From positions 1-34,921 of the forward strand of contig CATKZW010000033.1 of NCBI GenBank assembly GCA_949841465.1: a stretch of 34,921 bases of DNA. Reading direction: 5' to 3'. The position numbers were made by a program, and so were the translations under genes. The notes under the pieces were generated by a model. The model was not told where the DNA came from. It worked only from the letters and a program-made list of their open reading frames with translations, and did no database searches. Source of the DNA: an uncultured Oscillospiraceae bacterium (GTDB lineage Bacteria; Bacillota; Clostridia; Oscillospirales; Oscillospiraceae). Positions 22,653 through 24,773 of the stretch are shown piece by piece; the first letter of the stretch is position 1; each line of letters opens with the position of its first letter.

Positions 22653-22681
22653 TTGACTTTTTTGCTTGAAAGTGCTAAATT
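22653..22681 (+). promoter_or_regulatory. Promoter of the aroF-tyrA leader transcript
   Basis: TTGACT (22653-22658), 17 bases, TAAATT (22676-22681). Transcription would begin near 22688, about 25 bases before the leader peptide ATG. Confidence 0.7.
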
Positions 22682-22701
22682 ATCAAAAGCAAATAGAAGG
22701 G

Positions 22702-22830
22702 AGGACTGCGCATGAACCGCCGGAGCTATGGGTATGGCTATTACCGCTATTACGATAGCGGCTTTTTGTCATGCCCTTGAAGGTTCCCGCAGTCCTGTTG
22801 AGCGCGGCGGCCCCAGGGGGGCCGCTTTTT
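22702..22830 (+). promoter_or_regulatory. Attenuator structures: long-range stem, internal hairpin and terminator
   Basis: AGGACTGCG (22702-22710) pairs with CGCAGTCCT (22788-22796), and GAACC (22715-22719) with GGTTC (22782-22786), giving a 14-bp interrupted stem that encloses the leader ORF and hides part of its RBS and the ATG. Inside it CCGCTAT (22744-22750) and ATAGCGG (22755-22761) form a hairpin followed by CTTTTTG. Downstream GCGGCCCC (22807-22814) pairs with GGGGCCGC (22818-22825) and TTTTT follows: an intrinsic terminator before aroF. A competing pairing CCGCCG (22718-22723) with CGGCGG (22805-22810) could break it. Confidence 0.7.
22712..22780 (+). CDS. Tyrosine-rich leader peptide of the aroF-tyrA operon
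   Basis: 22 codons, ATG 22712 to TGA 22778-22780, with GGGAGG seven bases upstream. The peptide reads MNRRSYGYGYYRYYDSG and then a short FLSCP end. Six of residues 6-14 are Tyr, four of them encoded by TAT although the surrounding genes favour GC-ending codons. It is followed by a terminator and then by DAHP synthase and prephenate dehydrogenase genes, exactly the position and composition of an attenuation leader. Function as a Tyr-tRNA sensor is inferred. Confidence 0.8.
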   Translation: MNRRSYGYGYYRYYDSGFLSCP

Positions 22831-22866
22831 GTATGCCTGAAACAACCCTGAAGGAGACGATCAATC

Positions 22867-23883
22867 ATGGTAGTCATTATGAAGCACGATTTCACCCAGG
22901 CCCAGCTGGACGGGGCCGTCCAAGCCATGGAGGCGGGCGGCGTCCGGGTGATGGTGTCCAAGGGTGTGGAGACCACCATCCTGGGCGCGGAGGGCGACGC
23001 TGGGGCGCTGAGCCAGGAGGCGCTGGCCCAGCTGGACGGCGTGGAGCGGGTCATGCGGGTCAGCGAGCCCTATAAAAAAGCCAACCGCAAGTATCATCCC
23101 GATGACTCGGTCATCGACATGGGCCGGGGGGTGTCCATCGGCGGGAGCAAGCTGGTGGTCATCGCAGGTCCCTGCTCGGTGGAGAGCGAGGGGCAGATTC
23201 TGGAGGTGGCCAAATCGGTGCAGAGCTCCGGGGCGGCCGCCCTGCGGGGGGGCGCATACAAGCCCCGCACCTCCCCCTACGCCTTCCAGGGCAAGGGGGT
23301 GGAGGGCGTCATGCTGCTGAGCGAGGCCCGGAAGGCCACCGGCCTGCCCATCGTGTCCGAGCTGATGAGCGCCGACCAGCTGCCCCTGTTTGAGGAAGCG
23401 GTGGACGTGATCCAGATCGGCGCTCGGAACATGCAGAATTTCGACCTGCTGAAAAAGGTGGGCCACACCAACAAGCCCATCCTGCTCAAGCGGGGGCTGT
23501 CCTCCACCATTGAGGAGTGGCTGATGAGCGCGGAGTATATCATGGCGGGGGGCAACCCCAACGTGATTTTGTGCGAGCGGGGCATCCGCACCTTCGAGAC
23601 CTTCACCCGCAACACCCTGGACCTGTCCGCGGTGCTGGCGGTGAAGCGGCAGAGCCATCTGCCCGTGGTGGTGGACCCCTCCCACGCCTGCGGCAAGGCG
23701 TGGATGGTGGAGCGCATGGCCATGGCGGCGGTGGCCGCCGGGGCGGACGGCCTCATCATCGAGGTGCACAACGATCCCCCCCGCGCCCTGTGCGACGGGG
23801 CCCAGTCCGTCACCCCGGAGCAGTTCGGCGGCATCATGGACAAGCTGCGGGCGGTGGCCGCCTGCGTGGGCCGGGAAGTTTGA
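22867..23883 (+). CDS. aroF: 3-Deoxy-7-phosphoheptulonate synthase, type I-beta with regulatory N-domain
   Basis: 338 residues. It condenses phosphoenolpyruvate and erythrose 4-phosphate to DAHP, the entry to the shikimate pathway. Residues 1-about 70 form the ferredoxin-like regulatory domain (MVVIMKHDFTQAQLDGAVQA) that in Thermotoga-type enzymes mediates feedback by Tyr and Phe. The barrel has VVIAGPCSVESEGQI (GPCSVES at 101-107), YKPRTSPYAFQGKG, QIGARNMQNF and the metal-site DPSHACGK. GGAG is ten bases before ATG 22867. It lies after the attenuator and 17 bases before tyrA. Confidence 0.96.
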   Translation: MVVIMKHDFTQAQLDGAVQAMEAGGVRVMVSKGVETTILGAEGDAGALSQEALAQLDGVERVMRVSEPYKKANRKYHPDDSVIDMGRGVSIGGSKLVVIAGPCSVESEGQILEVAKSVQSSGAAALRGGAYKPRTSPYAFQGKGVEGVMLLSEARKATGLPIVSELMSADQLPLFEEAVDVIQIGARNMQNFDLLKKVGHTNKPILLKRGLSSTIEEWLMSAEYIMAGGNPNVILCERGIRTFETFTRNTLDLSAVLAVKRQSHLPVVVDPSHACGKAWMVERMAMAAVAAGADGLIIEVHNDPPRALCDGAQSVTPEQFGGIMDKLRAVAACVGREV

Positions 23884-23900: not shown

Positions 23901-24773
23901 ATGAAGAAAATACTAGTGGTGGGCCTGGGGCTCATCGGTGCGTCCCTGTCCATGGCCCTCCAGGGCTTTGAGGACTATGAGGTGGTGGGGGCGGTGCGCT
24001 CCCAGGCCACCTACGACAAGGCCGTGGCCCGCAGGGCGGCGGACCGGCTCACCTTCGACCCCGCCGCCGAGCTGCCCGGGGCGGACGTGGTGGTGCTGTG
24101 CCAGGACCCGGCGGGCATCATCGGCTTCCTGCGGGAGCACAAAGACCGCTTCAAGCCAGGGGCCCTGGTGTGGGACGTGTGCGGCGTGAAGACCGCCGTC
24201 GCACAGGCGGCGGAGTGCCTCCCCCATGGGGTGGACTTCATCGGCTGCCACCCCATGGCGGGCAAGGAGGTGTCCGGCATCGACAACGCCGAGGGCACAC
24301 TGTTCCGCAACACCCACTTTATCGTCACCCCCGGTCCCCGGGCCACCCAGGAGCATTTGGACCTGCTCCACCGCATGGCGGACTGGTGCAAGTTCGGTGA
24401 TGTCATTGAGACGACGCCGGAGCGCCACGACGAGATGATCGCCTACACCAGCCAGCTCATGCACGTCATCGCCGTGTCGGTGTGCGACAACGAGGAGCTG
24501 TTTTCCTGCGTGGGCTTTGAGGGCGGCTCCTTCCGGGATTGCACCCGGGTGGCCGCGCTGGACCCGGCCATGTGGACCCAGCTGTTCACCCTCAACGCCC
24601 CCGCCCTGTCCAGGACGGTGGCCCGGCTGGAGGAGCGGATCCACCAGTACCGGGTGGCCATCGAGAACAACGACCGGGAGACCCTGCGGGCAATGCTGTC
24701 CAGCGCGTCGGACCGGAAGAAGCAGATCAACCTGGAGCGGGCCCGTGGCGACGACGTGCGGCCCAAATTCTGA
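23901..24773 (+). CDS. tyrA: Prephenate dehydrogenase
   Basis: 290 residues. It oxidatively decarboxylates prephenate to 4-hydroxyphenylpyruvate, the tyrosine-specific branch. The NAD fold opens with VVGLGLIGASLSMAL (GxGxxG at 8-13); GCHPMAGKEVSGIDNA and FIVTPGPRAT carry the catalytic His region. YTSQLMHVIAVSV and the helical C-terminal dimer domain follow. There is no ACT domain at the C-terminus, so feedback may rest on AroF and the attenuator. ATG 23901 has GGGAG nearby. The pairing with aroF explains a Tyr-rich leader. Confidence 0.95.
   Translation: MKKILVVGLGLIGASLSMALQGFEDYEVVGAVRSQATYDKAVARRAADRLTFDPAAELPGADVVVLCQDPAGIIGFLREHKDRFKPGALVWDVCGVKTAVAQAAECLPHGVDFIGCHPMAGKEVSGIDNAEGTLFRNTHFIVTPGPRATQEHLDLLHRMADWCKFGDVIETTPERHDEMIAYTSQLMHVIAVSVCDNEELFSCVGFEGGSFRDCTRVAALDPAMWTQLFTLNAPALSRTVARLEERIHQYRVAIENNDRETLRAMLSSASDRKKQINLERARGDDVRPKF

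Follow-up and report, generated by a model that had tools for sequence, protein, structure and literature searches.

The genes for DAHP synthase (aroF, 22867–23883; Pfam PF00793 and PF18152) and prephenate dehydrogenase (tyrA, 23901–24773; Pfam PF02153 and PF20463) follow one another in a contig from an uncultured Oscillospiraceae bacterium, behind a leader region at 22653–22866, which raises the question of how their transcription might be tied to the supply of tyrosine. All positions are those of the window, i.e. the whole stretch of 34,921 nucleotides that was analysed, and all features are on the plus strand unless stated. A first-pass annotation had proposed that ribosomes stalling at tyrosine codons in a short leader ORF decide between alternative stems, and had not found the pairing that would break the terminator in front of aroF. 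We now regard Tyr-codon attenuation before aroF-tyrA as very probable, and the complete model, in which a ribosome-mediated transcription attenuator senses Tyr-tRNA through the wiring proposed below, as likely.

Elements of the leader

The promoter, ribosome binding site, 22-codon ORF and six tyrosine codons described in the first-pass annotation are all present as claimed. The promoter (22653–22681) consists of a −35 element TTGACT, a 17-nt spacer and a −10 element TAAATT, is kept together with the leader in relatives, and would place the transcript start near 22688; its pattern was found once, against a mean of 0.2 in shuffled sequences. A Shine-Dalgarno sequence read off the DNA (GGGAGGA, 22699–22705) precedes the leader ORF (22712–22780), which runs from an ATG at 22712 to a TGA at 22778–22780 and encodes MNRRSYGYGYYRYYDSGFLSCP. 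Its tyrosine codons are numbers 6, 8, 10, 11, 13 and 14 (four TAT, two TAC), spanning 22727–22753. The leader therefore holds a short translatable ORF with its own Shine-Dalgarno, as leader-peptide attenuators do, its translation being predicted. The Shine-Dalgarno of aroF itself (AAGGAG) lies at 22851–22856, outside the folds of the window leader.

The free leader RNA was predicted to fold into one long imperfect hairpin composed of three stems (P1, P2 and P3) and followed by the terminator, a fold better than those of 200 out of 200 shuffled sequences (z −3.8). P1 is the long-range stem that had been said to hide the start, and indeed joins the Shine-Dalgarno/start region (22702–22710) to 22788–22796 by 9 bp, its 3′ arm overlapping a post-stop segment that we call C (22782–22794); folding gave an additional helix between 22714–22718 and 22782–22786. 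P2, a stem added in this analysis, pairs Tyr and Gly codons at 22730–22738 with 22768–22776 (9 bp) and, in the folding model, is what turns the whole leader into one long hairpin. P3 lies within the ORF, pairing CCGCTAT (22744–22750) with ATAGCGG (22755–22761), and is followed by CTTTTTG. The GC-rich terminator with TTTTT before aroF (22806–22830) is also where it had been placed, with arms at 22806–22814 (D) and 22818–22826 (E) and the U-tract behind them.

Conservation and distribution

A search with AroF gave matches in 121 of 149 relatives. Of these matches, 41 reach 70% identity or more and are called the tyrA type; they comprise L001–L030 (the window being L001) and L032–L042; TyrA is encoded nearby in all 30 of L001–L030, the stretches of L032–L042 being too short for this check. 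The leader was kept in 38 of the 39 relatives with a complete region upstream of a tyrA-type aroF, and across the 39 resulting leaders (window plus 38 relatives) the number of tyrosine codons ranges from 2 (L030) to 7. Since the tyrosine ORF is kept in relatives, the leader is not a product of chance. L034, which has no leader, was dropped before all folding; L010, in which the contig breaks off within the leader, was left out of the ribosome scans.

In the window's genome a covariance model (R1) built from these 39 leaders found a single strong copy (E 1.3e-20); the second-ranking match (E 0.26) does not lie before aroF. Within the family Oscillospiraceae copies were detected in 47 of 300 genomes and 23 of 106 genera, with no match in the other 253 genomes under the strict search filters; part of these non-matches (G001, G011 and G018, of the same genus) is explained by the lack of a tyrA-type aroF above 70% identity, and some copies may be missed because the strict filters of large searches lose weak matches. 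Across the order 11 of 394 genomes had a copy, ten of them in the same family and one, weak, elsewhere (E 0.007). Judged by these searches, the leader is found almost only in one family. Among the relatives are records named as Flavonifractor, Intestinimonas, Papillibacter and uncultured Oscillospiraceae. All 29 examined R1 hits other than the window's own lie before aroF, 27 of them with tyrA within the short stretch examined. R1 also matched 17 of 19 named records (L092–L110; AroF identity 69–91%), several of which are the same contigs as G loci.

Absence of the ORF from orthologous leaders, which had been named as an observation that would count against the proposal, was confined to isolated relatives: L106, L108 and L034 gave no R1 match and have no leader. 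L034 and L108 retain the same promoter, which sits directly before aroF in both, and have lost the leader ORF and terminator, making them natural attenuator deletions. For the comparisons that follow, nine repeat or broken covariance-model loci were removed, and L030, with no terminator by a stricter rule and only two tyrosines, was left out, giving 58 of 59 leaders. The leader of L213, one of the nine loci removed, contains an in-frame TAG and N bases and is either broken or affected by a sequence error.

Sequence comparison establishes the tyrosine ORF. Tyrosine makes up 24% of the 1285 residues in the 58 leader peptides, with a mean of 5.3 (range 3 to 8) in each and at least four in 56. When the peptides were aligned on a conserved Arg, tyrosine stood at position −1 in 52, −2 in 41, −4 in 46 and −6 in 40 of the 58. 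Codons TAT and TAC are mixed at −4 (24 and 22 leaders, respectively) and −6 (26 and 14), indicating that the residue and not the base is selected there, whilst at −2, −1 and +1 of the Arg the codon is nearly fixed. Like other leader-peptide attenuators, this one carries conserved codons for the amino acid that its operon makes.

Other residues (D, S, G, C and P) are also conserved at their own positions in the peptide, as would be expected if the peptide itself (RY-DSG-SCP) stalled the ribosome in response to tyrosine. Nascent-peptide arrest of this kind is known from TnaC-type systems. The conserved residues are, however, encoded by strands of the stems (CGC TAT, GAT AGC GGC, GCCC), and in at least four leaders, with five more identified by eye, the ORF stops before the GCCC box and the box is still kept outside it, so that it is the RNA rather than the peptide that is conserved there; we consider arrest by the peptide quite improbable.

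The promoter is a second conserved element, all 58 leaders having TTGACTT[TC] ahead of their ATG. The extended promoter pattern occurs in the window's genome as one exact copy and two more with two mismatches. We also observed that the spacer region (22653–22682) is as conserved as the leader and partly dyadic, with the consensus TTGACTTTnaCgCctAAAAGTGcTAAAGTA across the 58 leaders. This spacer is a possible operator of a regulator, to judge by its sequence, and because the promoter is kept in L034 and L108 without a leader a DNA-binding regulator may act in addition to attenuation. The same two facts, spacer conservation and its persistence in two relatives that lack the leader, would fit a model in which a promoter repressor, a T-box or some other RNA that senses a tRNA or a metabolite is the actual sensor and the ORF is incidental. 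Against such a model, the ORF and its tyrosine codons are conserved across 28 clades and no Rfam family matches the leader at the gathering score, and we think it highly unlikely. At that score the sole Rfam match in the window is the T-box before leuA (RF00230, 18445–18688, minus strand), which confirms the earlier identification of that element; a lax scan of the leader gave weak, unrelated hits only (best E 0.46), in agreement with the statement that no named family was known for it. The T-box covariance model (RF00230) was tried on the aroF-tyrA leader and not matched there; in the window's genome it has 12 matches, four of which exceed the cut-off.

Folding, coevolution and a candidate antiterminator

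The stems were assessed by swap tests, in which the binding of each leader's own partners was compared with that of partners exchanged between clades; grouping at 70% identity divides the 58 leaders into 28 clades. A leader's own partner was the better binder for the terminator D:E in 27 of 28 clades (p = 1.5e-8), for P2 in 22 (p = 1.4e-4) and for P1, taken as the Shine-Dalgarno/start region against the whole post-stop segment, in 22 (p = 2.7e-4, but 0.13 when the post-stop segment is cut to its first 20 bases), these and the other p-values in this section being optimistic because segments were chosen after seeing the data and the clades share ancestry. Comparison across clades thus establishes the terminator, P2 and part of P1.

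Covariation was assessed in the 39 leaders. P2 and P3 together had 87.9% of cells paired and 15 doubly changed cells, against 6.1 in shuffled alignments (0 of 500 reached 15) and up to 11 in slid structures. All six doubly changed pairs fall in P2 (six of its nine pairs); P3 has about 95–96% of cells paired and no change on both sides. Further pair types in P2 and P3 did not exceed the shuffles (215 of 500 as high). The conserved tyrosine run with covarying stems, which it had been suggested to look for in related Oscillospiraceae, was thus for the most part found.

In 58 of 59 cases the leader is separated from aroF by a hairpin with a T-rich stretch, i.e. an intrinsic terminator stands between the ORF and the first gene, as in leader-peptide attenuators; the boundaries that a script set in the early folding analyses are doubtful, at least those of L022, L029 and L030. 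This nearly constant terminator argues against control at the level of translation, with a stalled ribosome exposing or coupling to the aroF start and no termination switch, and so does the variable distance between leader and aroF. Such control would agree with a long structured leader just before the gene and with the leader's own Shine-Dalgarno being hidden in P1, but we consider it very improbable. The strong coevolution of this downstream terminator also bears on the in-ORF hairpin with CTTTTTG, which the first-pass annotation had pointed out and which is present in the window, where it might be taken for the regulated terminator, with the downstream hairpin secondary or constitutive. The hairpin itself stood up and its role as a conserved terminator did not, since five or more T in a row occur in four of 57 leaders and the longest T-run after the stem is 2–4 in the remaining 53; this is the least probable of the alternatives that we weighed.

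A ribosome-mediated switch would operate as follows. When Tyr-tRNA is ample, the ribosome would reach the stop codon and, as this lies within a strand of the ORF's 3′ part termed S2 (22757–22779), would cover S2 and most of C; the terminator D:E would then form and transcription would end ahead of aroF. Under a shortage of Tyr-tRNA, the ribosome would stall on the tyrosine codons, most effectively at Tyr-Tyr before the conserved Arg, and would occlude the 5′ strands of P2 and P3. The 3′ strands of these two stems (S2), thereby freed, could pair with the terminator 3′ arm around an inner C:D hairpin, and since S2:E pairing would prevent the terminator, aroF-tyrA would be transcribed. In untranslated RNA, S2, C and the Shine-Dalgarno would be tied up in P1, P2 and P3, leaving the terminator to form. 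The nesting suggests an order of folding in which C:D forms first and E then zips onto S2, no displacement being needed.

The effect of ribosome position was calculated in a scan that folds the RNA at equilibrium, sets the ribosome front at a constant 13 bases and bars upstream RNA from pairing past the ribosome. The advantage of the terminator, averaged over the 58 leaders, was 12.1 kcal/mol when the RNA was free, 4.2 when the ribosome stood on tyrosine codons and 12.6 when it stood at the stop, part of the gap between stop and tyrosine codons being trivial because less RNA is free at the stop. It was lowest at the codon before the Arg (3.5) and at the Arg (3.2), and on tyrosine codons it lay below the value at the stop in 58 of 58 leaders and below that of free RNA in 57. 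For the window the values were 12.7 (free), −3.1 to 2.5 (tyrosine codons) and 6.3 (stop). The same scan of Escherichia coli leaders gave, for trpL, 10.5 free, 3.9 and 4.4 on the Trp codons and 12.8 at the stop; for pheL, 7.8 free, 16.7 at the stop and −5.2 to −1.4 on five of the seven Phe codons (1.5 and 10.0 on the others); and for hisL, 24.0 free, 17.3–22.7 on the His codons and 20.0 at the stop. In this model the leader resembles trpL and pheL. The scan is not a clean detector: the dip of hisL is small, and of the 58 leaders just 19, including that of the window, have a best stall position at which antitermination is outright preferred. Taken with the comparative evidence, these results support the earlier suggestion that ribosome stalling at tyrosine codons may decide between the stems.

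When the ribosome's A site was placed at codon 10 or codon 11, the window leader was predicted to fold into a nested antiterminator occupying both terminator arms. The outer pairs of S2, the predicted antiterminator strand, are 22757–22763 with 22820–22826 and 22774–22779 with 22814–22819. C, which in free RNA is predicted to pair upstream, would in the stalled state pair with D (22804–22812), the inner pairs being 22782–22785 with 22809–22812 and 22787–22790 with 22804–22807. The nested fold formed in eight of 13 leaders inspected (L001, L003, L008, L014, L015, L016, L018 and L033) and not in the other five.

Terminators were also compared with null versions that keep the same stem with its base pairs permuted. 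Real terminators paired better with S2 in 27 of 28 clades (p = 2.2e-8), and S2:E did so in 26 of 28 when strand flips were disallowed (p = 1e-7). In 24 of 28 clades the stalled state was less terminator-prone than with permuted stems (p = 5.7e-6; 3.5 versus 6.9 kcal/mol), while free RNA was more so (12.1 versus 10.7 kcal/mol, p = 0.003). Complementarity between S2 and the terminator is thus established by comparison of sequences. It is not the sole signal, since three other pairings exceed the null as well: that of E with the near post-stop segment Cn (p = 0.0011), that of E with C (p = 0.015) and that of D with P2a (p = 0.0014). S2 with D did not exceed it (p = 0.65), and pairing with the 5′ arm of the trp type gave p = 0.37 for C with D and p = 0.056 for Cn with D.

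Swap tests of the antiterminator gave p = 0.6 for S2:E with whole segments, p = 0.03 for the tail only, and p = 0.18 and 0.07 for C:D; that for S2:E is insensitive because S2 and E hardly vary. Chimeras of upstream and terminator parts from the first 39 leaders showed no difference in stalled energies (p = 1), and a pairing map of all windows recovered the terminator and P2 and not the antiterminator. The two bases after the GCCC box match the two before GGGC in the terminator loop (p = 0.003 against reassigned partners; 54 leaders in 25 clades, three without an anchor and one without the two-base context having been dropped and a few anchors, L040 among them, appearing misplaced), examples being UU/AA, AU/AU and GU/AC. 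An antiterminator made of C:D alone was tried and rejected, its energy being like that with shuffled spacers (two of 40 below 5%, mean z −0.23). A stall-favoured antiterminator, a further mark of a leader-peptide attenuator, is found in silico, with swap tests weak or negative. On balance we lean towards S2:E as the switch that had eluded the first-pass annotation; the inner C:D hairpin is its weakest step, with suggestive evidence.

Known systems and the second aroF

The leader has the general design of E. coli pheL-pheA and trpL-trp, namely a short ORF with cognate codons, a terminator and, in the folding scan, a stall-dependent drop in terminator advantage. It differs from them in its tyrosine codons, in the predicted capture of the terminator 3′ arm with a nested inner hairpin, and in having the leader Shine-Dalgarno in the same hairpin. 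The trp switch uses the other arm of the terminator, the 5′ one, which pairs with strand 2. The same two genes, aroF and tyrA, also lie side by side in E. coli, where they are under control of the TyrR protein. A Leu-rich leader has reportedly been seen in Staphylococcus aureus. Six of the leader peptides were compared with known families of leader-peptide proteins, with no match in NCBIfam and one below threshold in Pfam (E 0.12).

The nearest published case, compared by description only, is AroR of Corynebacterium glutamicum, in which a leader peptide with Phe-Tyr-Phe precedes aroF and expression is described as enhanced by stalling under Phe limitation and as unaffected by Tyr availability (PMC11802643); a leader peptide at this gene is also described in PMC4046766. 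AroR likewise places an aromatic leader peptide before a DAHP synthase gene and is reported to use stalling attenuation, but it responds to Phe, belongs to the Actinobacteria, has three aromatic residues as opposed to a tyrosine run and, as far as described, does not precede tyrA. In Acholeplasma, uORFC-13-1 combines a uORF and a terminator before aroF, with at least one Phe codon and 24 representatives, and attenuation has been proposed (PMC8632094); what it shares with our leader is this arrangement ahead of a DAHP synthase gene, and the description gives no tyrosine run. Leader-peptide systems outside Proteobacteria and Actinobacteria had, to the knowledge of the authors concerned, not been shown before the His leaders of bacilli (PMC2965389), and His attenuators are described from the Bacillus cereus group, Eubacteriales and Erysipelotrichales (PMC9413887). 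As described, these Firmicutes attenuators likewise use leader peptides in places of T-boxes, for other amino acids and other genes. Tyrosine is listed under T-boxes and phenylalanine under attenuators in PMC1262725, and a T-box precedes a tyrosine operon in the B. cereus group (PMC2494555). As presented there, such a T-box would share with our leader the signal (uncharged tRNA-Tyr) and the target pathway, and differs in that the RNA reads the tRNA directly and has no ORF. No tyrosine-responsive leader peptide was among the matches listed in open-access PMC (e.g. the best 20 of 413 and the best 10 of 179), which is weak evidence of absence.

The window's genome has a second aroF (L031/L184), 62% identical to the first. 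It heads a run of ORFs that, from their translations, we take to be aroB, aroA, a small ORF and aroC. Its leader, MALSHTHSFTFTYGWTRFNVSGYFGVEKRGA, is Phe-rich and followed by a terminator-like hairpin. Such a hairpin lies within 60 bases of the stop in 17 of 18 second-aroF leaders of this kind tested, the hairpin of L065 being far off and doubtful. A simple rule (a short ORF preceded by a Shine-Dalgarno, with at least five aromatic residues making up at least 18%) called an aromatic leader in 35 of 50 regions upstream of second-paralog or single-copy aroF, and these 35 consist of 16.6% Phe, 7.6% Tyr and 2.1% Trp. Adding 60 named records, the same rule found aromatic leaders in 61 of 110 other aroF upstream regions, some records being repeated (L058/L114, L059/L138, L066/L140), against one on the reverse strand and a mean of 1.95 in mononucleotide shuffles. 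Examples are the Phe-rich or Phe/Tyr-rich ORFs before aroF in Clostridium, Sporomusa and Synergistaceae records (L112, L119, L129, L136, L152, L162, L166, L122 and others). An Rfam scan of 40 of 80 aroF loci found a T-box in four; in an Erysipelotrichaceae locus (L161, 1232–1465) it lies directly before aroF on the same strand.

These observations allow one joint reading, which we offer tentatively, as plausible rather than favoured. In it, DAHP synthase would since long ago, and generally, be controlled by leader-peptide attenuation across Clostridia and their neighbours; once the gene had been duplicated in Oscillospiraceae, the paralogs would have acquired separate codes, Tyr for aroF-tyrA versus Phe-rich for the shikimate aroF; and the switch of the Tyr leader would be turned inside out, the terminator 3′ arm being captured by 3′ strands of the ORF itself.

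If the model is true, it would add a tyrosine-specific case to the leader-peptide attenuators; AroR, the single aroF leader in print that contains a Tyr codon, is by contrast described as having no tyrosine response (PMC11802643). It would provide an antiterminator geometry to set against that of trp, and a pair of DAHP synthase paralogs in one genome read by two codon codes. For many gut-type anaerobes it would explain the stretch before aroF-tyrA.
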